From the IMG/VR virus record IMGVR_UViG_3300044859_002846, positions 1 to 20,366 of that record: a stretch of 20,366 nucleotides of DNA; one strand, written 5' to 3'. Below the pieces are notes generated by a model. The model did not search any database, was not told the DNA's origin, and saw only the letters and a program-made list of their open reading frames with translations. This document shows, piece by piece, positions 1,673 to 13,664 of the stretch (its first letter is position 1; the number at the start of each line of letters is the position of its first letter). The stretch comes from a virus. The translations under genes were made by a program, and so were the position numbers.

Positions 1673-3706
1673 CTAGTATAATTTAATTTCGCAAGCGTCT
1701 GTTGAGCAATACTTTTCAGACTCTGCGTCAAGATTATCCTTGCCATCATAGATAGCGGACCAATCAATTTTACCAATTTTTCCAACGTAAGAGTTATATT
1801 CTTCTCTTGTAATATTTGTATATGGTTGTTGAGGATAAGTTTTATTACCCATCGGCAGAAATGAAACTGCCTTTAATTGACCTTCATACATGTGTAATGC
1901 TGGAGCAATATGCTTAGTCTCAGATTCCTTGTCAAATGATAAAGTTACAGATACTCCATTGTCAGACCAATACTTTTGAGCGGTAGCAGCCAAACCAATC
2001 TTTTCAAAAAGACTTACATCTTTTTCAGAACGAGGATGTCCAGATGCTACTGGGAAATATACTACTGAAGTGTTTGCAGATACTACGTCATCTTCAATTT
2101 TATACCCTGCCGCTTTAAATAAATGCACCATTGGATCTGTATTGCCAAACCTTATAGCACGAAGATAGAATTCTCCTCCTGGACCCCAATGAACTCCTGG
2201 TGTTGCACCAGATAATAGGGAAACAGATCCTGAAGGTTTGACGGTAGTTACACGAATTGACTCACGTACACATAGCCATTCTGAGTATGAGTGATCGTAT
2301 GCACGAATCTTTTTATACCCTTCGTCCATCCACTCACGAATTACTGGCATACCTTTTGTGTCTGCAAATGATGCAATACCAGTTAGAGATGTTCCAATAC
2401 GACGATTACGTTGCATAATTCCATTTGTGGTTTGCCAATGTGTTGGCATAAGTGTAACGGTCTTACCATATAGATATGCAAACTTTAGTGTACGAAGAAA
2501 ATCTTCTTTGTCTTCATGACGGTTTAAATGAACTTCTACAAGTGTGCATAACTCATAACTTTCTAATGGTTGTTCAGCGCAAGGATTAAATCCCATAACA
2601 CGAGAATCTTTATAGTCTGCAGGATCTGCTAGTCTTCCATAATCTCTAGCAACGTCTAGCCAAATAAATCCTGGCTCACCATTGTCTGCAATTAAATTAA
2701 CATAGTCTTCATATTTTGTTCCAACCTCTGCAGCAATAGAATTATTAGACATCCATGCCCATCCTGGATTTTCTGAATCAAATGAGTTTCTGTCTGGAAA
2801 AACCTCTGCATTTTTTAAATTAATAAAATCTTTGTCTTCTGGTAATCCTAAAGCCAAGGTAGCAGAACGACGAACATTTCCAGAAACAACACATGTACCA
2901 ATAAGGTTAACAATATCTACAATTGCACGAGAATCAAGTTTTTCTCCTGCTCTACCGCCGATTACTGCGTCTATCTTGTTATGTAGTGCAATGAGTGGTG
3001 CTGGACCGCTAGCAACCCCTCCAAAGCCTTTTATAGGGGCACCTAGAGGACGGATAAGGTCGTAGTTAAACTTTTGTATAGCCTGATTAGGACGTAGGTA
3101 TGAGTTTAATAACATTCTTACAGAGTCTACCCAACCTTCACGAGTATCTGGAATTTCCCATACATTTTCTGGCTCTGTAGGAGCATTAATAGTGATTTCT
3201 TTGTCTTGACCGACGGTATCAAAACCTACACCTATACCTAACATTAAAGCATCCATAACCCAAGCAAACAATGCTCCTGGATCATTACGATCAATATCAC
3301 GAGTAGACACCATTGCACAGTTTTGTAGAGAAGCAGAGTTGCGCTTTTCCATAGTCATAGGAGTTCCAAATGCCCAAAGACCTCTACCTGGCGGAGTCCA
3401 TTTTAAATTAAACATACGGTCATATGCTTCTTGAGCAGATTTTTGACTCTTGTTATCGTTCCACGGTAGACGATTATCTTTAGCGTGGTTTTTTTGTACT
3501 GAGTACATTCCTTCAATTACCCGCTTACAAACCTCATGCCATCTTTCTTTTGTTCCGTCTTCTTTCATACGAGAGTATGTGCGTATAAACGTAATTTCTC
3601 CTAATGAATTAGAGCCTGCGTCTGAGAATCCAAAGGGTGCAGGAGTTAATGAGTACTTTGTTACAAAGTCCTCTGATAGACGAAATGAGAATACGCTTTC
3701 TGACAT
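1673..3706 (-). CDS. nrdJ: Adenosylcobalamin-dependent (class II) ribonucleoside-triphosphate reductase
   Basis: This 677-aa protein matches the monomeric class II reductase type, which uses B12 to make the thiyl radical and reduces NTPs to dNTPs in the cytoplasm. The known enzymes are slightly longer, about 740 aa. Visible landmarks are: PPGRGLWAFGT (residues 105-115); the first active-site cysteine C130 in LQNCAM; the NPCAE loop at 374-378 with thiyl-radical cysteine C376 and glutamate E378; the partner cysteine C387, 11 residues on; KPSGSVSLLSG (490-500); and a C-terminal CSTDAC pair (C667, C672) that would be re-reduced by thioredoxin or a similar donor. All catalytic residues are present, so the enzyme should be active. 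The start ATG has AAAGG 10 nt upstream. It lies between the glycan cassette and a fibre gene, apparently as a separate transcription unit. The monomeric rather than dimeric class is inferred from the motifs. Confidence 0.95.
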   Translation of the reverse strand: MSESVFSFRLSEDFVTKYSLTPAPFGFSDAGSNSLGEITFIRTYSRMKEDGTKERWHEVCKRVIEGMYSVQKNHAKDNRLPWNDNKSQKSAQEAYDRMFNLKWTPPGRGLWAFGTPMTMEKRNSASLQNCAMVSTRDIDRNDPGALFAWVMDALMLGIGVGFDTVGQDKEITINAPTEPENVWEIPDTREGWVDSVRMLLNSYLRPNQAIQKFNYDLIRPLGAPIKGFGGVASGPAPLIALHNKIDAVIGGRAGEKLDSRAIVDIVNLIGTCVVSGNVRRSATLALGLPEDKDFINLKNAEVFPDRNSFDSENPGWAWMSNNSIAAEVGTKYEDYVNLIADNGEPGFIWLDVARDYGRLADPADYKDSRVMGFNPCAEQPLESYELCTLVEVHLNRHEDKEDFLRTLKFAYLYGKTVTLMPTHWQTTNGIMQRNRRIGTSLTGIASFADTKGMPVIREWMDEGYKKIRAYDHSYSEWLCVRESIRVTTVKPSGSVSLLSGATPGVHWGPGGEFYLRAIRFGNTDPMVHLFKAAGYKIEDDVVSANTSVVYFPVASGHPRSEKDVSLFEKIGLAATAQKYWSDNGVSVTLSFDKESETKHIAPALHMYEGQLKAVSFLPMGNKTYPQQPYTNITREEYNSYVGKIGKIDWSAIYDGKDNLDAESEKYCSTDACEIKLY

Positions 3707-3767
3707 TTATTATTTACCTTTCATAGCAAAATTGAGTGAGTACTTCTTATTTTACGAAGTGGTCTTA

Positions 3768-3776
3768 AGTATATCA
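3768..3776 (-). promoter_or_regulatory. Candidate extended -10 promoter of the reductase gene
   Basis: On the minus strand the sequence reads TGATATACT, an extended -10 with one mismatch in the hexamer. It would give a leader of about 55 nt before the ATG at 3706. No convincing -35 was found. The 216-bp gap 3707-3922 separates two divergent genes and carries this site and the plus-strand one at 3884. Confidence 0.4.
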
Positions 3777-3883
3777 CAAATTTAAAAAGAAAAACACGCT
3801 TAAAAAAATATGTAAATCTTTTGTTGAGGGTTAGTGCTTTTGTTTTTTTAAAGTCTATATGTTATTTATAATGCTTGTTTTTA

Positions 3884-3892
3884 TGGTATAAT
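3884..3892 (+). promoter_or_regulatory. Extended -10 promoter of the plus-strand glycosyltransferase-like gene
   Basis: TGGTATAAT is a perfect extended -10 box. It is followed 30 nt later by an ATG at 3923 with a strong GGAGGT ribosome-binding site at 3913-3918. This argues against the longer reading frame that opens at 3875, since that start would lie inside the promoter. Confidence 0.6.
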
Positions 3893-3922
3893 TATAGAAA
3901 GTTTACCACAGCGGAGGTGCCT

Positions 3923-4579
3923 ATGAATAATGTTTGGATAGTAGTTCCAGTTATTTCTAACGATATTGATTTAACATCATATGTTGATAGACTATCTGGC
4001 GGCTATACCGCCCCAGAAACATATGAAAAAACTGTTTTTAACCCTGAAACACAAGCAAGTGAAAAAGAAGATGTGGCTCATCCATATGCTGGTCAAGTGT
4101 CACATGATTTTTCAAATAAAATTATTTTTGTAAACAAAGTAGACGGGTACGGCGAGTATGAAGGCGTAGTTCATTTGGAAGATTTTAATGATATAGGCAT
4201 ATATCGTTATTGGAATACTGGACTAGAGTATGCTTTTGCAAATGGGGCAGACTCAGTAATCTTAACAAATGGTGTTTTTGAATTTGATCCATTTGTAATT
4301 AAAGAAGCATATGATGAATTTTCTAAGGGTGAATCAGAGGTTATAAATATCTCTGATGGGGCTATGTTGTTAGTTTCATCATCTTCTAGCCTACGTGCTG
4401 ATGAGCAATTTCAAATATGGTTTGGTGATAATGATTTTTATCGTAGAGCAGAGCCTGTATTAGGATATTCTCGTTCAGAATATTTATGGGGAGATTATTT
4501 AATTGATTCTAGTTCTACCGAATCTTTTGATAGCATTGTTGCTTCTGATCAAGTAAAATATAATGCTAAGTGGAACTAA
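3923..4579 (+). CDS. Degenerate GT-A glycosyltransferase-like protein
   Basis: This 218-aa protein is the only plus-strand gene in the interior of the window. The start at 3923 is chosen because GGAGGT lies 4 nt upstream and the upstream in-frame ATG falls in the promoter. The N-terminal strand (NVWIVVPVIS), then WNTGLEYAFANGAD (97-110) and the later WFGDNDFYRRA (166-176) match the plan of family-2-like glycosyltransferases. In those, WN.G...A...GAD is normally followed by an N-D-D-V metal-binding motif. Here that position reads TNGVFEFDP (115-123), so the usual DxD is missing. It may therefore be inactive, metal-independent or only a binding protein. The last 14 bp overlap head-on with the 3' end of the GT4 gene. 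Fold assignment is by motif pattern only. Confidence 0.7.
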   Translation: MNNVWIVVPVISNDIDLTSYVDRLSGGYTAPETYEKTVFNPETQASEKEDVAHPYAGQVSHDFSNKIIFVNKVDGYGEYEGVVHLEDFNDIGIYRYWNTGLEYAFANGADSVILTNGVFEFDPFVIKEAYDEFSKGESEVINISDGAMLLVSSSSSLRADEQFQIWFGDNDFYRRAEPVLGYSRSEYLWGDYLIDSSSTESFDSIVASDQVKYNAKWN

Positions 4580-5540
4580 TTTTTTCAAACAATCTATTCC
4601 ACTCTTTAGACCTTAAATCCCAAGAGTAATTTTCATTATAAAAATCTGATTGTTTTTGTAATTTACTTTGTGTTTCTATAGACCAATAATTGTCAATCTC
4701 TTCATTTAGTGTTTTTGCATATGCTGGAATAAATGTTTCTGGTACCGCTTGCATTGGCATAAGCCTTGCATATTCTGATCCAGTTTCATATAATGCACCA
4801 AGATTAGTTGTAACCATACGACATCCCGCAGCACCAGCCTCAACCATAGCCAAACAACATGTTTCTTCAAACGTACTTGGGTATGCAAATATATGAGATT
4901 CTTGTAAGGCTTTTTTAATTACATCATTTGTAGCGTATCCCATATAATTAACGTTTTTCATATTACGGGCTATTTCAAAATGTTCTTCGTATACCCCGTT
5001 TGTATGAGCCTCATATCCAGTTCCATACATCTTTGCTGATGAATAAATATCAAGTTCAACATCATCTCTATTTAGCATTTCAAATGCTGGCAAAAGCATG
5101 TCTAATCCACGAAATGGGGCAGAAGTATAAATTAACTTTATCTTGCCATCTTTTGTCTTAGGTTTAAACTCTATTGGGTCAATAGCATTTTTAATTACAT
5201 ATGCATTTTCAAGAGGGATTTTAAATATCCAGCGATACTTTTCATGTTGCCAGTGAGAAATATATACAAATGAATTTATGGCATTCATAAATAAGGGATC
5301 TGTATATCCTGATCTTAACGATTCATCACTATGAGCCAAATGCTGCCATAGCAAATTCTTTTTTGTATATTTTACATTTTTAAAATATGGATTAGATAGC
5401 AAAAGGTTAATATCTTTATGCTGTGCTATATTAGTATATTTATATAGTCCAGATTTTAATATTTCTGTACCGCCCATTGGGGGCAAAGATTCTTCTACCA
5501 CCCCAATATCGTTTTGTGGAACCTGCTGCAACCAATCCAT
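4566..5540 (-). CDS. GT-B glycosyltransferase, GT4-like
   Basis: The product (324 aa) should transfer a sugar from a nucleotide donor to an acceptor, working in the cytoplasm on a glycan or a phage protein. The N-terminal domain has a GGTE motif (residues 23-26). The C-terminal domain has TSAPFRGLD (139-147) and the GT4 donor-site signature FEETCCLAMVEAG (224-236), with two glutamates eight apart (E226, E234). The start at 5540 is preferred to a TTG at 5573 because AGGAG lies 5 nt upstream of it and overlaps the TAG stop of the preceding gene; this also suggests translational coupling. It is the last gene of the operon beginning at 8451 and converges with the plus-strand gene, overlapping it by 14 bp. 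Donor and acceptor cannot be read from the sequence. Confidence 0.88.
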   Translation of the reverse strand: MDWLQQVPQNDIGVVEESLPPMGGTEILKSGLYKYTNIAQHKDINLLLSNPYFKNVKYTKKNLLWQHLAHSDESLRSGYTDPLFMNAINSFVYISHWQHEKYRWIFKIPLENAYVIKNAIDPIEFKPKTKDGKIKLIYTSAPFRGLDMLLPAFEMLNRDDVELDIYSSAKMYGTGYEAHTNGVYEEHFEIARNMKNVNYMGYATNDVIKKALQESHIFAYPSTFEETCCLAMVEAGAAGCRMVTTNLGALYETGSEYARLMPMQAVPETFIPAYAKTLNEEIDNYWSIETQSKLQKQSDFYNENYSWDLRSKEWNRLFEKISST

Positions 5541-5548
5541 GCTATCTC

Positions 5549-6271
5549 CTAATTGTAAGTTTTTTTCTGCCAAAACTGTTGTTTATATGAACGAACTATT
5601 TTTGATTTTAATAAGAAACCATTTTTACGATTTTCTTCTTCATCAAATTCTACAACATCGCTTTTCCAGTCTTCTCTCTTAAATGGAATAACCTGACAGA
5701 TAGGAGTTCCCTTTTCAAGAATAAAAACATTTTTGTCAATTATGGAATCCAATAGTTGAAATGGAAACTCAACACCAAGTTTATACATATCAGTATCCAC
5801 AACACCAGAAAATGTTCTAAATGGAAGATCGTGCCTGTTTGTTGGGTGCGTAAACAGACAACTATAGCCTTTTGGAGTAATAACTCTCCATCCTGGTCTC
5901 CACTTAAGAAGACTTGAAGAGCCACCAAATGGTCCTGGTAATCCTGGTGCTTGATCTGGTCCGTGTTGTCCTATAAGATTAATATTTGTTGCCCAACGAA
6001 CATTAATCATTCCTTTATCATTTTTTCTAAACTCCATATCAAATGGTAATTCAAACATGTAGCCTGTACTTAAAGCGTCAAGAAAAGGAGAGCATCCCTT
6101 TAATGTTAAGTTACTAACTGCAACCCCATCTTTTGATAAACCGTCTAATTTTTCTTCATCCATTCTTGTTGGCATATCTTTATACCATTGTGGAAGAGAC
6201 TGAACTGCTGGCTTTGGACTTTCAAACAAAAGTTCTGTTTCTTTATCAAATGCTTCAAATTGTAATTTCAT
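5549..6271 (-). CDS. Conserved phage protein of unknown function
   Basis: I cannot name this 240-aa protein with certainty. It has SLPQWYKDMP near residue 25, KGCSPFLDAL (58-67), TPKGYSCLFTHPTNR around 132-146, SGVVDTDMY (around 155-163) and KGTPICQVIPFKREDW around 187-202. This pattern of short, strongly conserved-looking motifs resembles a family of hypothetical proteins known from marine and freshwater phages; the match is from memory and was not searched. There is no signal peptide and no membrane segment. The ATG overlaps the upstream stop as TAATG, with AGGAAA about 9 nt upstream. Its place between glycosyltransferases suggests a part in making or modifying the same glycan, possibly as a sugar-modifying enzyme; that is inference from position alone. 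Confidence 0.75.
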   Translation of the reverse strand: MKLQFEAFDKETELLFESPKPAVQSLPQWYKDMPTRMDEEKLDGLSKDGVAVSNLTLKGCSPFLDALSTGYMFELPFDMEFRKNDKGMINVRWATNINLIGQHGPDQAPGLPGPFGGSSSLLKWRPGWRVITPKGYSCLFTHPTNRHDLPFRTFSGVVDTDMYKLGVEFPFQLLDSIIDKNVFILEKGTPICQVIPFKREDWKSDVVEFDEEENRKNGFLLKSKIVRSYKQQFWQKKTYN

Positions 6272-6975
6272 TATTTATTTTCCTGTGGATAATTTTTTTG
6301 TAAAACATCCATCCAATGAAGTTTAAATGTTTTTTGATGAGTTACTCTAACTTTGGGATCCGCCCAAATTTCAAAACCAGAATTAATGGCTTTTGTGCAC
6401 CAAGAAAGATCTTCACCAATAAGTATAAACTCAGGATTTGTGTCTTTGTTTTCATCTGTATTGGGTATTGCTACTGGGCCAAACCAAGGTCTTGGCATTT
6501 TTTCAAATACTCCTTGTTTAACGGCTAGGAACCCAAATCCAGCCCCAGCAACTTTGAATGGCTCATTCTTATCAAGGAGCATTTGTTCTGGCATCATTCC
6601 GCCTCTAGGCTGATTATAAATAGGAACGTGGCGATCTTCCATTAAATAGCATCCAGAAATAATATCTTTTTCAGAATTATATAATGCAAAAAAGTCTGAT
6701 GGCTCCCACTCAATATCTGAATCAATCCAAATAATTTTGTCGTAAGTCCATTCACCACTACATGGCTCTGTCATATTTATATTATTTGTATCCCAGCCAC
6801 CAATTGTACACTCACGGGCCATTGCAACTAAAGATCCACCTTGATTTAAAAAGTTCCAAGATAAGCCTTCTTCATTTAGTATGTATGTTGTTTTAAGAAT
6901 ACTTCTCATATATCCAGGAGTAAATCCATTTCCTGGAGTAGCGATTACTACATTAAAATGTGGCTTATTTGCCAT
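6271..6975 (-). CDS. GT-A glycosyltransferase (phage type), copy 2
   Basis: This 234-aa protein has the order of parts expected for a small GT-A enzyme. There is a nucleotide-binding strand (FNVVIATPG, 7-15), an early conserved arginine in MARECT (52-57), the metal-binding DSD at 85-87 within WIDSDIEW, and GAGFGFLAVK. Late in the chain comes IGEDLSWCTKA, with the general-base acidic pair, followed by a histidine in VTHQK. These motifs are typical of glycosyltransferases found in many tailed phages. It is a clear paralog of the next gene upstream (6965-7636), with the same motifs in the same order. Its first 11 bp overlap that gene's end, and only a weak AAGG lies before the ATG, so it may be translated by coupling. 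Sugar and acceptor are unknown. Confidence 0.88.
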   Translation of the reverse strand: MANKPHFNVVIATPGNGFTPGYMRSILKTTYILNEEGLSWNFLNQGGSLVAMARECTIGGWDTNNINMTEPCSGEWTYDKIIWIDSDIEWEPSDFFALYNSEKDIISGCYLMEDRHVPIYNQPRGGMMPEQMLLDKNEPFKVAGAGFGFLAVKQGVFEKMPRPWFGPVAIPNTDENKDTNPEFILIGEDLSWCTKAINSGFEIWADPKVRVTHQKTFKLHWMDVLQKNYPQENK

Positions 6976-7636
6976 AGTTATCTAACCTTACCTTTACTTT
7001 TTTATAATGCGACAAACTTACTGTAGGATCTAAGTATATCTTAAATCCTGCTTTCTGTGCTTTTTTGCACCAAGAAAAATCTTCTCCGTAAGGAATAAAA
7101 ATTTCTTTTTCCCCATCTTCTGAAGTCATTTTTTCAAATACTGACTCAAACCATGGTCTTTTTATATTTTCAAATACGCCTTGTTTCATTGCTATAAAAC
7201 CAAATCCTGCAGCAAAAATTTCTTCTTCCTTATTGCTTTTTAAAATTTTATCAATTTCTGTTGCTGCATCTTCTACTGCTACAGAAAACATTGGTACCAT
7301 TTTTTCATTAAAATATAAACCAGAAACAATATCTTTATCAGATTCATATATTTTCATAAAGTCTGTTATTTCCCATCCAATATCAGAATCAATCCAAAAA
7401 ATTTTATCATATGTTACTTGTCCACGAACTGGGCTATTATTAAAAGGATCGAGATATTGATCCCCCATTGCTGTTGCTTCTCTAGCGGTACTAACCATAG
7501 ATGAATATTCATTTAAGAACATATATGAAATACCTACTTGATTTAGATATGAAATAGTTTGTATTAGACTTTTTACATATTCTGCTTCCATATTTCTACC
7601 AGGAGTAGCGATAAGAATATTTACATGTGGATTCAT
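6965..7636 (-). CDS. GT-A glycosyltransferase (phage type), copy 1
   Basis: The product is 223 aa from the ATG at 7636. A TTG 12 nt further upstream is possible, but that stretch supplies the GGAGA ribosome-binding site of the ATG. Motifs are: NILIATPGR (6-14); a conserved arginine in TARE (50-53); the DSD metal site at 83-85 in WIDSDIGW; AGFGFIAMK; the acidic GEDFSWC; and a late histidine in LSHYKK. All key residues of a GT-A enzyme are kept. The ATG shares its A with the sulfotransferase stop (TAATG), so the two are very likely co-translated. Two related GT-A enzymes side by side suggest successive sugar additions to one glycan; this is inference. Confidence 0.88.
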   Translation of the reverse strand: MNPHVNILIATPGRNMEAEYVKSLIQTISYLNQVGISYMFLNEYSSMVSTAREATAMGDQYLDPFNNSPVRGQVTYDKIFWIDSDIGWEITDFMKIYESDKDIVSGLYFNEKMVPMFSVAVEDAATEIDKILKSNKEEEIFAAGFGFIAMKQGVFENIKRPWFESVFEKMTSEDGEKEIFIPYGEDFSWCKKAQKAGFKIYLDPTVSLSHYKKVKVRLDNYGK

Positions 7637-8451
7637 TAGTTTCTCCAAAATTCTTGACCAGAATATTTATTTATTACATATTCAGATAATAGTTCTTGTT
7701 TATTTATATTTCGACGGGATATAGAAGATCTTACATCATGTTGTCCTATAAGTCCATAGACATTATCATCTTCTTTAATGTTGTTTGCTATATTTGAATA
7801 ATCATGGGTAAATCTTTCAATACCGTAAAAATCATAAATCTTGTTAATTTCTTCTTCTGGATTTGCTATTAAATCATCGTATTCTACAAAATGGAAATAC
7901 TTTCTGTTGTCTGGATGCATTGCAAATGCTATACCATATAAGCAGTTATCAATAATGCCTTTTGGTCTCATTAAACTATCACACCTAATATCATCTGCTG
8001 GACGGTAAAAATTAAATTCCTGTCTTGTCTGTATTTCAGAATCAATAAAATTATTTTTATTTGGATTTTTCTTAACTAGACTTATAAATGATGCAAGGAT
8101 ATCTGTTATTCCTCTTATTGGTAGTATTATTTTTGGTTCATATCCAAGATTTCTTTGCAATACCCCGAAATGTTCAGGCATTGACCATTCTCTTGATTTA
8201 TCAATAATGATAGGTTTATTTGTATCAGAGTAGTATCCTTCTAATACCCCCATAATTGTATTTGGCATTACTACAGGTTTGGGATATGCAGAGTATTGTT
8301 CTGATGCCAAAATACTACGTTCTAAATTAAATATCATTCCACACATAGGTGAATTTGCTGATGAATAAATATCAGGATTTTGATTTAATATAGATGATAT
8401 TAGAGTACTACCAGATCTTGGAAGACCTGCCATAAAATAAAAATTTTTCAT
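7636..8451 (-). CDS. PAPS-dependent sulfotransferase
   Basis: This 271-aa protein should move a sulfuryl group from PAPS to a hydroxyl or amine, most likely on a sugar. The 5'-phosphosulfate loop is GLPRSGSTL (residues 9-17). The 3'-phosphate site is seen as R113 in LPIRG with S121 eight residues later, the spacing seen in sulfotransferases. The C-terminal half has the usual VEYDDLIANPEEEINKIYDFYGI-type element (positions 189-211) and GQHDVRSSI near 236-244. The length is normal for the family. It is the first gene of the glycan operon, 47 bp downstream of the giant repeat gene, with its own promoter and a GGGGGT element before the ATG. A phage would rely on the host for PAPS. Which molecule is sulfated is not known; a virion or host surface glycan is the obvious guess. 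Confidence 0.88.
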   Translation of the reverse strand: MKNFYFMAGLPRSGSTLISSILNQNPDIYSSANSPMCGMIFNLERSILASEQYSAYPKPVVMPNTIMGVLEGYYSDTNKPIIIDKSREWSMPEHFGVLQRNLGYEPKIILPIRGITDILASFISLVKKNPNKNNFIDSEIQTRQEFNFYRPADDIRCDSLMRPKGIIDNCLYGIAFAMHPDNRKYFHFVEYDDLIANPEEEINKIYDFYGIERFTHDYSNIANNIKEDDNVYGLIGQHDVRSSISRRNINKQELLSEYVINKYSGQEFWRN

Positions 8452-8469
8452 ATTACCCCCGTAATATCT

Positions 8470-8497
8470 ATTATAGCAGAGAGATATTTTTTTTCAA
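8470..8497 (-). promoter_or_regulatory. Promoter of the sulfotransferase-glycosyltransferase operon
   Basis: On the minus strand there is TTGAAA (8497-8492), a 16-nt spacer and TATAAT (8475-8470), the latter preceded by TGC as an extended -10. The -35 begins just inside the 3' end of the giant repeat gene (stop codon at 8501-8499). The leader would be about 12 nt before the ATG at 8451. This is one of the two best promoters in the window. Confidence 0.7.
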
Positions 8498-8498
8498 A

Positions 8499-11400
8499 TT
8501 ATGCAAGTTCAATATCAGTTAAATTATAATTAGATATTGGTAATGTCAATGCTTGAGTAGTCCATGTAGCACCATCAGTTGATACATATATGCCTAGGTT
8601 TTCATTTACTGTTGAGGTATTTATGTCTCCTGATCCTGAAATTGCTGTCCATAGGTTGTTGCCATAGGCTACTGAAAATATATCATTTACAAAGTTTAAG
8701 GTTTTGGTAGTCCAGGTTACTCCATCGGTTGAAGTTCTTAGGGCTCCAAAATTGCCACCTGCTACCCAAATACTGTTTCCGTAGGCTATTGATCGTATAG
8801 TTCCACTTCCAAAGTTTGAAGTTTGTGTGGTCCAGGTTGTGCCATCTGTTGAGGTACGGAGTGTGCCTGAAATTCCACCTGCTATCCAGAGGTTATTTCC
8901 GTAGGCTACTGATATTATACGTGTAGTTCCAAAGTTAGAGGTGCGTGTAGTCCAGGTTATGGCATCGGTTGAGGTGCGCAATTGGCCTCCATCCCCACCT
9001 GCTATCCAAAGGCTGTTGCCGTAGGCTGCTGACCATATAGTGGTATTTCCAAAGTTAGAGGTTTGGGTAGTCCAGGTAGTGCCGTCTGTTGAGGTACGGA
9101 GTTGTCCTGTATAGCCAGTTGCTACCCAAAGGCTGTTGCCGTAGGCTACTCTTTGTATTTGTGTATTTCCAAAGTTAGAGGTGCGTGTGGTCCAGGTTGT
9201 TCCATCCGTTGAGGTACGTAACTGGCCTGTATTTCCACCTGCTATCCAAAGATTGTTTCCGTAGTCTACTGAGTTTATCTGTGTATTACCAAAGTTAGAG
9301 GTGCGTGTGGTCCAGGTTGTTCCGTTTGTTGATGTACGGACTTGTCCTGAACCACCACCTGCTACCCACAGGTTATTGCCGTAGGCTACTGATGTTATAA
9401 AAGTATTGCCAAAGTTGGAGGTTTGTGTTACCCATCTATTTGGTGTTTTTCCATCTACATATATTGAATAAGTGTTATTATAAGAATTTACTTTTTCTAC
9501 CCAACCCAAAACTCCTGTTCTAGTTGAGGCATATGTAGAATTTGATGTATTAAATGTATAAAATATTCCTTGATCTGATGCTAATATATCTGTGTTTATT
9601 GATGTAATAATTGGTGATATTGATGGGGTGTAGGAAATTCGTAGTTGTCCTGCCTCACCACCTATTGCCCATAGGTTGTTGCCGTAGGCTACTGAGTTTA
9701 TAACGGTACTTCCAAAGTTAGAGGTTTGGGTAGTCCAGGTTATGGCATCTATTGAGGTACGTAACTGGCCTGCATCTCCAACTATTGCCCAAAGGTTGTT
9801 AGCGTAGGCTACTGAGTTTATAGTTGTAGCACCAAAGTTAGAGGTGCGGGTGGTCCAAGTTATTGCATCAGTTGAGGTGCGGAGATTGCCTGCCTCACCA
9901 CCTGCTACCCAGAGGTTGTTGCCGTAGATTATTTTGTTTATAAGTGAAGCACCAAAGTTTGAGGTTTGGGTGGTCCACGTTATAGCGTCTGTTGAGGTGC
10001 GGAGTTGTCCTGAATATCCACCTGCTATCCAAAGGCTATTACTATAGACTGCTGTGCGTATACCTGAAGTTCCAAAGTTTGAGGTTTGGGTGGTCCATGT
10101 TATTGTATCTGTTGAGGTACGGAGTTGTCCTGAACCACCAACTGCTACCCAGAGGTTATTTCCGTAGGCTATTTCGTTTATAAGTGAAGCACCAAAGTTT
10201 GAGGTTCTGGTAGTCCATGTTATTGCATCTGTTGAGGTGCGTAGTTGGCCATTAGCCCCTCCTATTACCCAAAGGTTGTTGTTATGGGCTAATGCAAATA
10301 TACTGTCAACAGCAGAAAAGTTAGAGGTTTGGGTAGTCCATGTTATTGCATCTGTTGAGGTGCGTAGTGTGCTAAAGATTCCACTTGCTACCCACAGGTT
10401 ATTGCCGTAGGCTATGTCTCTTATAGCAAGGTTTCCAGAAATATTTGAAGTTTGAGTAGTCCATTGCAAATTTTGAATGGTATATGAAATTAAATTATTA
10501 CTAGTAACAAAATTATTATCTGCTATTAATCCAAATGCTGTATTTCCAAATGCAGATATTGACTTTATATTGTTGAATAATGGTGTTACGGTTGAGGTGC
10601 GGACTTGGCCTGCACTACCGCCTGCTACCCAAAGGCTGTTGCCGTAGGCTACTGATTGTATACGTGTATTTCCAAAGTTAGAGGTTTGGGTATCCCAGGT
10701 TGTGCCATCTGTTGAGGTACGGAGTGTGCCTGTGTAGCCAACTGCTATCCATAGGCTGTTGGCGTAGGCTATTGACTCTATGCGTGTAGTTCCAAAGTTG
10801 GAGGTGCGTGTGGCCCAGGTTATGGCATCTGTTGAGGTACGAATTCGGCCATATACTCCACCTGCTACCCAAAGGTTGTTGCCATAGGCTACTGAGAATA
10901 TAGTTGTTCCAAAGTTGGAGGTGCGGGTGGCCCAGGTTATGGCATCTGTTGAGGTACGTATTTGGCTTCCAGTACCACCTGCTACCCACAGGTTATTGCC
11001 GTAGGCTATTGCATATATATTTGAGGTTCCAAAGTTGGAGGTTTGGGTGGTCCAAGTTGTGCCATCGGTTGAGGTGCGGATTTGTCCTGTATAGCCGCCT
11101 GCTACCCAAAGGCTGTTGCCGTAGGCTATTGATTGTATCTCTGTATTACCAAAGTTAGAGGTGCGGGTGGTCCAGGTTATGGCATCTGTTGAGGTGCGGA
11201 GTTGTCCTGTATTACCACCTGCTATCCATAGGCTGTTGGCGTAGGCTACTGATTGTATAAAAGAGGTTCCAAAGTTTGAGGTACGAGTGGTCCAGGTTAT
11301 GGCATCTGTTGAGGTACGGAGTGTGCCTGAACTACCACCTACTACCCACAGGTTATTGCCGTAGGCTACTGATGTTATAAAAAAGTTTCCAAAGTTAGAG

Positions 11401-13664
11401 GTGCGGGTGGTCCAAAAAATTCCTGCCTGATACAAACTTCTATATTGATTATATTGATCTGTATTTCTATCAGAATATAAAAGAGATCCATTTATATTTG
11501 ATATTGCTTTATAGCGTTCTGTTGTTGCTATGCCGCTTGATTTTACGTTGGTATCTACAGAAGCAATAGCATTTAAAATACTAATAGTAGTCCATGATAT
11601 TCTATCAGTAGACACTCTTGTATTTGTTCCTGTTGAAGATGCTACTGTTGATATATTTGGATTATATAATAAGATTGAGGTACGGAGTTGGCCTGACTCT
11701 CCACCTGCTACCCAAAGGCCGTTTCCATAGGCTACTGATGTTATACTTGAAGTTCCAAAGTTGGAGGTTTGCGTAGTCCAAGTTATTGCATCTGTTGAGG
11801 TGCGGAGTTGGCCTGTATTTCCACCTGCTATCCAAAGATTGTTTCCGTAGTCTACTGAGTTTATCTGTGTATTACCAAAGTTAGAGGTGCGTGTGGTCCA
11901 GGTCGTACCATCCGTTGAGGTACGTAACTGGCCTGTATCCCCACCTATTGTCCATAGGTTGTTGCCATAGGATATTGCTCTTATGGCTGTACTTCCAAAG
12001 TTTGAGGTACGGGTAGTCCAGGTTATGGCATCTGTTGAGGTACGAAGTGTTCCTGTATAGCCGCCTGCTATCCAAAGATTGTTTCCGTAGTTTAACCTTA
12101 GTATATCCGTATTACCAAAGTTTGAAGTTTGGGTAGTCCAGGTGGTGCCGTCTGTTGATGTTCGTAGTTGTCCTCTATTTCCACCTGCTACCCAGAGGCT
12201 GTTTCCATAGGCTATTGAGTGTATAAAAGAGGTTCCAAAGTTGGAGGTACGAGTGGTCCAGGTTGTGCCATCTGTTGAGGTGCGTAGTGTTCCTGCATTA
12301 CCACCTGCTATCCAAAGGTTATTGCCGTAGGCTATTGAGTATATACGTGTACTTCCAAAGTTGGAGGTGCGGGTATCCCAGGTTGTGCCATCTGTTGAAA
12401 TTTGTATTTGTCCAGTATCTCCACCTGCTATCCATAGGCTGTTGCCGTAGGCTACTGAGCGTATTGTTGTGCTTCCAAAGTTAGAGGTTTGTGTATTCCA
12501 ACTAGATATTGCATTATTATTTTCAGCAATTTGCACATTATTTATATTACTTGATCCAAATCCAGCATCTATTGTTGTCCATGATATGGAGTCGGTAGAA
12601 AATAAGAGTCTATTATTGTTCCCGCCGACAATATAATTATTTAAAGTAGGATTATATGAAATATCGTTTAAAGAATCATCTGCTGAAGTGCGGATTTGTC
12701 CTTGATTTCCACCTGCTACCCAGAGGCTGTTGCCATAGGCTACTGAGTATATATCTGAAGTTCCAAAGTTAGAGGTTTGGGTGGTCCAGGTTATGGTATC
12801 TGTTGAGGTGCGCAATTGGCCATATTGCCCACCTGCTACCCAAAGACTGTTGCCGTAGGCTACTGAGAATATACTTGTATTACCAAGGTTTGAGGTTCTG
12901 GTAGTCCAGGTTGTGCCATCTGTTGATGTGCGTAGTTGTCCTGAATTTCCACCTGCTATCCAAAGGTTATTGCCGTAGGCTATTGAGCCTATAGATGTAC
13001 CACCAAAGTTGGAGGTTTGGGTAGTCCAGGTTATGGCATCTGTTGAGGTGCGTAAGGTGCCTGTATTTCCACCTGCTATCCAAAGACTGTTGCCGTAGGC
13101 TATTGAGCGTATTGCTGAAGTTCCAAAGTTTGAGGTTTGAGTGGTCCAAGTTGTGCCATCTGTTGAGGTGCGCAATTGGCCATATTGCCCACCTGCTACC
13201 CAAAGGCTGTTGCCGTAGGCTACTGAAAATATATTTGTATTACCAAAGTTTGAGGTTTGAGTGGTCCAAGTTGTGCCATCTGTTGAGGTGCGCAATTGGC
13301 CTGTATAGCCGCCTGCTATCCATAGGCTGTTGCCGTAGGCTACTAATCGTATATCCGTATTTCCAAAGTTGGAGGTACGAGTGGTCCAGGTTATGGTATC
13401 GGTTGAGGTGCGAAGTGTGCCAGATTGCCCACCTGCTACCCAAAGGTTATTTCCATAGGCTACTGCTCTTATCTGTGTGTTTCCAAAGTTTGAGGTTTGT
13501 GTGGTCCAGAATGTGCCATTATTTGACGGTATATTAATATCAAAAGTTGTTAAATCTCCAGTAGATGATCTTAATGTTCCATCAGTTCCAGTAATAAAAA
13601 GTTTTTTTAAAAAGTTGAATGTTGATACAAATACAGCGCTAGCAGTAATTCCTAAGATTGGCAT
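8499..13664 (-). CDS. Giant tail-fibre protein with five tandem seven-bladed beta-propellers
   Basis: The product is about 1721 aa from the ATG at 13664, which shares a base with the upstream fibre stop (TAATG); a TTG at 13694 gives a less likely longer form. After a 52-residue N-terminus (MPILGITASAVFVSTF, then AT-rich sequence) come 35 repeats of about 40 residues. Consensus pieces in order are WTT[QR]TSNFG, three variable residues, I, two variable residues, [VI]AYGN[NS]LW[VI]AGG, two variable residues, G, and [QT][LI]RTSTD. The S-x-D-G-x-T-W-like end of each unit recalls the Asp-box (BNR) propeller blade. The repeats fall into five blocks of exactly seven, divided by linkers of 61, 87, 43 and 66 residues. 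There is no catalytic signature. A long multivalent adhesin, perhaps for glycans, is the likely role; the propeller fold is inferred from repeat length and number. The repeats are much richer in GC than the rest of the window. Confidence 0.85.
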   Translation of the reverse strand: MPILGITASAVFVSTFNFLKKLFITGTDGTLRSSTGDLTTFDINIPSNNGTFWTTQTSNFGNTQIRAVAYGNNLWVAGGQSGTLRTSTDTITWTTRTSNFGNTDIRLVAYGNSLWIAGGYTGQLRTSTDGTTWTTQTSNFGNTNIFSVAYGNSLWVAGGQYGQLRTSTDGTTWTTQTSNFGTSAIRSIAYGNSLWIAGGNTGTLRTSTDAITWTTQTSNFGGTSIGSIAYGNNLWIAGGNSGQLRTSTDGTTWTTRTSNLGNTSIFSVAYGNSLWVAGGQYGQLRTSTDTITWTTQTSNFGTSDIYSVAYGNSLWVAGGNQGQIRTSADDSLNDISYNPTLNNYIVGGNNNRLLFSTDSISWTTIDAGFGSSNINNVQIAENNNAISSWNTQTSNFGSTTIRSVAYGNSLWIAGGDTGQIQISTDGTTWDTRTSNFGSTRIYSIAYGNNLWIAGGNAGTLRTSTDGTTWTTRTSNFGTSFIHSIAYGNSLWVAGGNRGQLRTSTDGTTWTTQTSNFGNTDILRLNYGNNLWIAGGYTGTLRTSTDAITWTTRTSNFGSTAIRAISYGNNLWTIGGDTGQLRTSTDGTTWTTRTSNFGNTQINSVDYGNNLWIAGGNTGQLRTSTDAITWTTQTSNFGTSSITSVAYGNGLWVAGGESGQLRTSILLYNPNISTVASSTGTNTRVSTDRISWTTISILNAIASVDTNVKSSGIATTERYKAISNINGSLLYSDRNTDQYNQYRSLYQAGIFWTTRTSNFGNFFITSVAYGNNLWVVGGSSGTLRTSTDAITWTTRTSNFGTSFIQSVAYANSLWIAGGNTGQLRTSTDAITWTTRTSNFGNTEIQSIAYGNSLWVAGGYTGQIRTSTDGTTWTTQTSNFGTSNIYAIAYGNNLWVAGGTGSQIRTSTDAITWATRTSNFGTTIFSVAYGNNLWVAGGVYGRIRTSTDAITWATRTSNFGTTRIESIAYANSLWIAVGYTGTLRTSTDGTTWDTQTSNFGNTRIQSVAYGNSLWVAGGSAGQVRTSTVTPLFNNIKSISAFGNTAFGLIADNNFVTSNNLISYTIQNLQWTTQTSNISGNLAIRDIAYGNNLWVASGIFSTLRTSTDAITWTTQTSNFSAVDSIFALAHNNNLWVIGGANGQLRTSTDAITWTTRTSNFGASLINEIAYGNNLWVAVGGSGQLRTSTDTITWTTQTSNFGTSGIRTAVYSNSLWIAGGYSGQLRTSTDAITWTTQTSNFGASLINKIIYGNNLWVAGGEAGNLRTSTDAITWTTRTSNFGATTINSVAYANNLWAIVGDAGQLRTSIDAITWTTQTSNFGSTVINSVAYGNNLWAIGGEAGQLRISYTPSISPIITSINTDILASDQGIFYTFNTSNSTYASTRTGVLGWVEKVNSYNNTYSIYVDGKTPNRWVTQTSNFGNTFITSVAYGNNLWVAGGGSGQVRTSTNGTTWTTRTSNFGNTQINSVDYGNNLWIAGGNTGQLRTSTDGTTWTTRTSNFGNTQIQRVAYGNSLWVATGYTGQLRTSTDGTTWTTQTSNFGNTTIWSAAYGNSLWIAGGDGGQLRTSTDAITWTTRTSNFGTTRIISVAYGNNLWIAGGISGTLRTSTDGTTWTTQTSNFGSGTIRSIAYGNSIWVAGGNFGALRTSTDGVTWTTKTLNFVNDIFSVAYGNNLWTAISGSGDINTSTVNENLGIYVSTDGATWTTQALTLPISNYNLTDIELA
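8613..9434 (-). repeat. Propeller block 5 (seven 40-residue repeats)
   Basis: The block runs from a Trp codon (9434) to the end of an N-T-S codon triplet (8613): 274 residues, six units of 40 plus one of 34. The last unit is the most worn (WTTKTLNFV). A 37-residue low-complexity tail follows to the stop. Confidence 0.85.
9633..10463 (-). repeat. Propeller block 4 (seven repeats)
   Basis: The block is 277 residues; its first two units are 41 residues instead of 40 (TSNISGN and TSNFSAV variants). It starts at Trp and ends at R-I-S. The 66-residue linker at 9435-9632 separates it from block 5. Confidence 0.85.
10593..11414 (-). repeat. Propeller block 3 (seven repeats)
   Basis: The block is 274 residues. 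Its fifth unit is 39 residues long (one residue lost after SNFGTT) and two units start WAT rather than WTT. A 43-residue AT-rich linker (10464-10592) follows. Confidence 0.85.
11676..12500 (-). repeat. Propeller block 2 (seven repeats)
   Basis: The block is 275 residues and starts WNTQTSNFG. Its sixth unit is nearly identical in DNA to the second unit of block 5 (95 identical bases, 11809-11903 and 9223-9317). The longest linker, 87 residues (11415-11675), follows it. Confidence 0.85.
12684..13508 (-). repeat. Propeller block 1 (seven repeats)
   Basis: The block is 275 residues, six units of 40 plus one of 35. Units 3 and 6 share 47 identical bases (13159-13205 and 12799-12845), exactly 360 bp apart. 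The linker at 12501-12683 (61 residues) contains FSTDSISWTTI, an older-looking blade end. Confidence 0.85.

Follow-up and report, generated by a model that had tools for sequence, protein, structure and literature searches.

The gene considered here raises the question of how 35 near-identical repeats are organised within one viral protein, and what the sequence lying between groups of these repeats represents. The whole stretch of DNA analysed, referred to below as the window, is a complete IMG/VR virus record of 20,366 bases. The gene occupies its minus strand, with the ATG start codon at position 13,664 and the stop codon at 8499, and encodes 1721 residues; the start codon overlaps the stop codon of the upstream tail-fibre-like gene (TAATG). 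Splitting the translation at the motif W-x-T-[QRK] yields 35 Trp-anchored repeats forming five blocks of seven (7-7-7-7-7), and a period of 120 bp was found independently by TRF. The 30 complete units reaching from one Trp to the next are mostly of 40 residues (27 units), one being of 39 and two of 41, while the final unit of every block ends after strand C. Four of the blocks terminate in R-x-S and block 5 in N-T-S. The arrangement described previously in a sequence-only reading, i.e. 35 repeats of about 40 residues grouped 7-7-7-7-7 with block ends [RN]-x-S, is thus reproduced. A 100% identical protein is encoded in three further IMG/VR metagenome records, L002, L005 and L008 (here and below, the L-numbers label the contigs or records that carry relatives), the identical gene having been checked at the DNA level in L002; since the same protein is present in four records, an assembly chimera is unlikely.

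As far as the fold of a single block—or cassette—is concerned, the structure of block 1 was predicted from 72 aligned cassettes with a pLDDT of 95.6 and a pTM of 0.91. The predicted strand order is D-(A-B-C-D)x6-A-B-C, the model placing four strands, A-B-C-D, in each blade. Every block runs from a D strand to a C strand and contains seven D strands and six Asp-boxes; the box STD[GAT]xTW is present in nearly all inner blades. The Asp-box of the window, STDGTTW, lacks one residue compared with the classic SxDxGxTW, which is seen in the relatives from L060 and L064 (STDNGVTW); the Pfam family BNR is weak in the latter two and missing from the list for the window. No glycosidase family (GH74/GH33) was matched when these were sought in Pfam for the cassette protein. 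The Foldseek comparison of block 1 with the PDB retrieved the seven-bladed YCF48 (2xbg, 5ojr; TM-scores 0.77–0.80, 15–17% identity) and the WD40 propeller 5yzv (TM-score up to 0.80), and the comparison with BFVD retrieved many phage proteins with TM-scores of 0.88–0.91; one outer capsid and one baseplate protein are among the viral matches. At the sequence level, only the designed propellers Tako8/Ika8 were matched in the PDB (E-values from 6e-5 to 2.5e-4).

Judging from the strands and the TM-scores, block 1 is predicted to be a closed seven-bladed Asp-box propeller, as the sequence-only reading had supposed; the prediction gives a closed ring in place of the open solenoid or beta-helix that it had named as the opposite outcome. 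The shortened last unit points to a velcro closure, by which both ends of the cassette would be brought together. Six Asp-boxes per seven blades and the shortened end unit also fit what the survey by Quistgaard and Thirup (2009; PMC2716378) gives for Asp-box (BNR) propellers, i.e. a box in the C-D hairpin, a 1+3 velcro closure and n-1 Asp-boxes.

The blade number was then followed in relatives. Scans of IMG/VR proteins led to about 30 different viral contigs with blade runs, in which the blades were counted by a blade HMM and then by an iterated HMM; runs merging with the blades of the surrounding protein (the host blades discussed below) were separated by eye, and the degenerate blades in L034, L044, L059, L064, L071 and L072 were additionally inspected by eye. 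Approximately 81 of the 83 complete runs have a blade number divisible by seven, this tally being partly manual, and the expectation that block counts in relatives should lie near seven has thus been borne out. The great majority of the complete runs have seven blades, others having 14 (L007, L009, L043), 21 (L044, L060, L065), 28 (L034, L064) or 35 (L060). The only exceptions to multiples of seven are two five-blade runs, in L048 (residues 553–749 of its ORF) and L050 (positions 7770–9254), which could be either collapsed repeats or five-bladed rings. The 35 blades in L060 (7179–11,696) form a single unbroken run (5 x 7) within one ORF, and a 21-blade ORF lies nearby. Near-identical repeats of 120 bp are difficult to assemble, and a collapse could explain both five-blade runs; an assembly artefact of short repeats is nevertheless opposed by the multiples of seven over many contigs and by the identical protein in four records, and an open solenoid by the confident prediction and the good TM-scores to closed rings, so that both of these explanations are scarcely credible.

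With the five blocks taken out, 345 residues remain, distributed over six separated pieces (Table 1). It appears from their sequence that the linkers and both termini are themselves blades, belonging to a degenerate Asp-box propeller, designated here as the host. By inspection, the ordered host pieces of the window contain seven C-D hairpins—GTLRSSTGDLTTF, LLFSTDSISW, TRVSTDRISW, SLLYSDRNTDQY, FVTSNNLISY, IFYTFNTSNSTY and IYVSTDGATW—and seven were also recognised by inspection in the host pieces of L043. The C-terminal strand A (NLTDIEL) complements the N-terminal strands B-C-D of host blade 1, and we infer that the pieces close into one ring.

Table 1 Parts of the gene and the two adjoining tail-fibre-like genes; host blades and strands are predicted assignments
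Feature	Position	Strand	Residues	Description
N-terminal host piece	13509..13664	-	1-52	host blade 1, strands B-C-D
Cassette 1	12684..13508	-	53-327	7 blades; D-A loop before host blade 2
Host piece 2	12501..12683	-	328-388	blade 2 (Asp-box STDSISW), strand A of blade 3
Cassette 2	11676..12500	-	389-663	7 blades; A-B loop of host blade 3
Host piece 3	11415..11675	-	664-750	remainder of blade 3 (STDRISW) and blade 4
Cassette 3	10593..11414	-	751-1024	7 blades; D-A loop before host blade 5
Host piece 4	10464..10592	-	1025-1067	host blade 5
Cassette 4	9633..10463	-	1068-1344	7 blades; D-A loop before host blade 6
Host piece 5	9435..9632	-	1345-1410	blade 6, strands A-B of blade 7
Cassette 5	8610..9434	-	1411-1685	7 blades; B-C loop of host blade 7
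Host piece 6	8502..8609	-	1686-1721	Asp-box STDGATW, strand D, strand A closing blade 1
P0002	13664..15916	-		tail-fibre-like; cassette-free
P0003	15945..18326	-		tail-fibre-like; C-terminal domain (aa 696-782) cassette-free

The concatenated host pieces of four proteins were matched to the cassette profile by hhalign with Prob 97.7 and an E-value of 2.3e-12 over 241 columns, and the controls, i.e. the column-shuffled and the reversed host alignment, gave no match to that profile; as the score is about unchanged with the pieces permuted, this result speaks for blade homology and not for the order of the pieces or the closure. The blade HMM matched six host blades individually in the L009/L043 lineage; the individual host blades of the window have weak scores, and the host of L044 scores below its own shuffles. 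The window host aligns collinearly, end to end, with the host of L044 (40% identity) and those of L043/L009 (22–23%), with three divergent lineages agreeing in all six pieces and in their order. It should be pointed out that AlphaFold, applied to residues 1–750 with a seven-row alignment, gave a pLDDT of 37.6, that a PDB search with the host profile returned matches at chance level only, and that host-only searches of viral contigs and phages for a complete cassette-free host found none. Enlarging the host alignment with cassette rows was rejected, the host relatives having been misplaced into block 1.

With regard to conservation, the host pieces L3, L4 and C of L007 are 85–97% identical to those of the window and the blocks 70–78%; the identities for L1/L2 (50–53%) were set aside as coming from a forced alignment, L007 being truncated and carrying a 14-blade insert there. 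Wherever they can be aligned, the host pieces are more conserved than the propellers. This bears on the alternative that the linker blades are just decaying relics of once larger arrays, with no functional host propeller. Disrupted and diverging repetitive propellers have indeed been described (Pereira and Lupas 2022; PMC9218822), and the weak HMM scores of the window host blades would agree with it; relics, however, should drift faster, whereas the host pieces rank among the best-preserved parts when close relatives are compared, and all six have been kept in order across three lineages at 22–40% identity, which makes that origin very improbable.

Concerning the sites of insertion, four of the five cassettes are located, by inspection, in D-A or B-C loops and the remaining one in an A-B loop. 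Host blade 2, at which seven blades are inserted in the window, L003, L013 and L009, is unbroken in L011, L042, L043 and L044, the N-terminal host piece being directly joined to piece 2 in L011, L042 and L044; host blade 6 is unbroken in both L009 and L043. In the last half-blade, L009 has no insertion (WTTVTIPVSASTVNDIIGLE) and L043 has a 7-blade cassette, the flanking DNA being the same in both. It is these naturally empty sites that lend support to the closure of the host into one ring. The slots also differ in their load: that of blade 5 holds 14 blades in L007 and seven in the window, and that of blade 7 holds 21 blades in L044, five in L048 and seven in the window. Occupied slots, moreover, appear to change their content as a whole. 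The L003 protein is 97–100% identical to that of the window everywhere except for block 3 (82.8%), the mismatches clustering at codons 760–1022 of a block that spans 751–1024, which indicates that cassette 3 was replaced whole. Similarly, the N-terminus and cassette 1 of L013 are 100% identical to the window and cassette 2 only 77%, pointing to a replacement of cassette 2 by a 77%-identical one.

These observations also speak against a simple string in which spacers merely keep five seven-bladed propellers apart, the model put forward in the sequence-only reading, with the linkers outside. In its favour, there is good support for the five closed rings, Asp-box propellers in tandem have been described (GH74; PMC2716378), and unbroken runs of 14–35 blades occur without any spacers. 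The spacers, however, bear Asp-boxes and the blade homology detected by hhalign and the blade HMM, where the two can be compared they have diverged less than the rings, and the host sequence of relatives passes through the sites of the window's blocks as a normal, unbroken blade; the string is thus improbable, and its outside linkers are not supported.

In L009 (7929–13,236) and L043 (4223–9497), two ORFs share the host propeller, the break lying at an identical place in both (..FVGGD stop / MTEIRYSTNSITW). As two different contigs agree in its position, this split is likely to be genuine, and one ring would there probably be built from two polypeptides.

The blades themselves share 76.8% identity within blocks, 75.9% between blocks and 76.0% at the same index. 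Being no more alike within blocks than between them, they do not make the blocks simple mutual copies, and whole-block duplication was rejected. The median dN and dS from blade comparisons are 0.21 and 0.58, respectively. Among 354 distinct 40-residue blades, an entropy of at least 2.4 bits is reached only at positions 10, 12 and 14, on the D-A side, and 28 and 29, in the B-C loop; the variable face lies opposite the Asp-box hairpin, on the side of which the cassette is tethered. Between blades of the window these five sites differ in 83% of comparisons and the other sites in 21%, and the swap of block 3 between L003 and the window changed 18 of 30 variable sites versus 29 of 205 others. A reverse transcriptase (RVT_1) was absent from 17 contigs, these being fragments, with the control genomes giving matches in 3, so that a diversity-generating retroelement is not supported; long inverted repeats at the block ends, sought as a signature of a mobile element, were not found. 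Homologous recombination among the repeats is the likely engine.

The gene sits in a virion structural module, the adjoining genes being tail-fibre-like, and the 86-kb contig that encodes the identical protein is that of a tailed phage, with genes for portal, protease, head and minor tail. The cassette is also found in other proteins. A homologue of the P0003 domain carries cassettes of 7 or 14 blades, once or twice, in L010, L031, L035 and L059; in the window, this fibre-tip domain occurs cassette-free both at the P0003 C-terminus (E-value 2.6e-7) and in P0011. The relative of P0002 in L050, 62% identical in its C-terminal part, has five blades. Further cassettes reside in a collar-like protein frame (L033, L039, L046, L058, L060, L064 and L075), the frame being assigned by motif and the Pfam family Collar matching in L075 only, with an E-value of 3e-4 below the cut-off, and inside another small beta domain (L071, L072). 

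Several observations lie outside this comparison. Within the virion module of the window, sulfotransferase, glycosyltransferase-like and ribonucleotide-reductase-like genes are encoded after the fibre gene, on its own strand (1673–8451). A cassette-like propeller is present in a collagen-repeat protein of the giant virus Hokovirus (A0A1V0SF56; TM-score 0.86, 37% identity), and distant relatives of the cassette occur in uncultured actinobacterial genome bins (L086, L088), possibly as prophages or binned phage contigs.

The explanation we consider probable is that of a propeller of propellers: a degenerate host ring carrying five seven-bladed, loop-inserted and exchangeable cassettes, putatively binding receptors. 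The product would be a virion fibre or tail-tip protein, its location being suggested by the gene neighbourhood. The host would be a seven-bladed Asp-box propeller in six separated pieces, closed by the C-terminal strand A; in each cassette the N-terminal D strand would complete the last blade, and this velcro would put the cassette ends side by side, so that a cassette fits a loop. Whole rings would be gained, lost and replaced, homologous recombination being the most likely mechanism, and individual blades would be shuffled among the rings; almost only multiples of seven would persist, as only these close. The host propeller would remain constant and each ring would vary in the residues of its open face, the rings serving as multivalent receptor-binding heads, with a surface glycan as the probable ligand, and the exchange of cassettes may diversify host recognition.

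The same nested architecture could hold rings that are structural, decorative or glycan-cleaving instead. Asp-box propellers include the glycosidases of families GH33, GH58 (phage K1F) and GH74 (PMC2716378), and the outer capsid and baseplate proteins among the viral Foldseek matches would suit a structural role. Near-identical blades, however, offer no unique catalytic site, Pfam gives no glycosidase family, and the variability of one face together with whole-ring exchange fits recognition better, which leaves a role other than binding rather unlikely. Since the fibre module, the one-face variability and the whole-ring replacement favour receptor binding, the reading with the best support is that of a fibre binding receptors or glycans multivalently, with heads that would be exchanged as folded units. 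In its wider form—a rack with loop slots holding zero to three interchangeable rings exchanged between phages, the cassette being used in unrelated fibre domains as well, for a combinatorial diversification of receptor binding free of reverse transcriptase—the proposal has roughly even chances.

With respect to known systems, the ring fold and the near-identical blades are not new, the latter having been described by Pereira and Lupas (2022; PMC9218822), who reported repetitive propellers amplified from single blades. Those arrays are similar in their near-identical blades, in long arrays splitting into several rings and in ongoing amplification; their blade numbers, however, show a continuous distribution and they lie mostly near protein termini, whereas the present runs are multiples of seven, inserted in loops and matched by empty sites. 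The Asp-box propellers surveyed in PMC2716378 share the C-D box, the closure and, as in YP_299179.1 and GH74, seven blades. Among the types 1–4 distinguished there, type 2 has insertions of foreign domains and types 3 and 4 comprise two propellers, tandem or interrupted; the arrangement proposed here, five Asp-box propellers of near-identical blades inserted in one Asp-box propeller, differs from these, and the insertion of several such propellers into another, with slots loaded by sevens, is absent from the organisational types. Among natural Asp-box-like folds with seven blades, the photosystem II assembly factor YCF48 comes nearest by Foldseek; it differs in being a single propeller with diverged blades that acts in cellular PSII assembly. 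Single phage BNR/DUF6242 propellers, such as WJZ48562.1 of the Actinomycetia phage DSL-LC01 and the BNR protein of the Synechococcus phage S-CBWM1, likewise consist of a seven-bladed cassette, that of DSL-LC01, however, being a lone free-standing propeller. The latter (L015; OQ999401.1) lies among collagen-like genes and is annotated as 'photosynthesis system II assembly factor', which probably reflects the fold similarity to YCF48. The designed Tako8/Ika8 propellers are artificial, with eight identical blades. There is some precedent for nesting itself, one propeller being discontinuous in three-propeller proteins such as DDB1. The open-access literature searched contains no description of nested Asp-box propellers with slots loaded by sevens.

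If the proposed architecture is true, the nested rings would show directly, in a natural protein, that the blade number is set by ring closure, and the presence/absence and replacement alleles occurring naturally can be used to test this closure rule. The five-blade runs provide an exact test, being either collapsed assemblies or five-bladed rings made from the same blade. For the phages, it would mean that binding heads are changed by swapping whole folded cassettes, with an effect comparable to that of diversity-generating retroelements, yet achieved without one.
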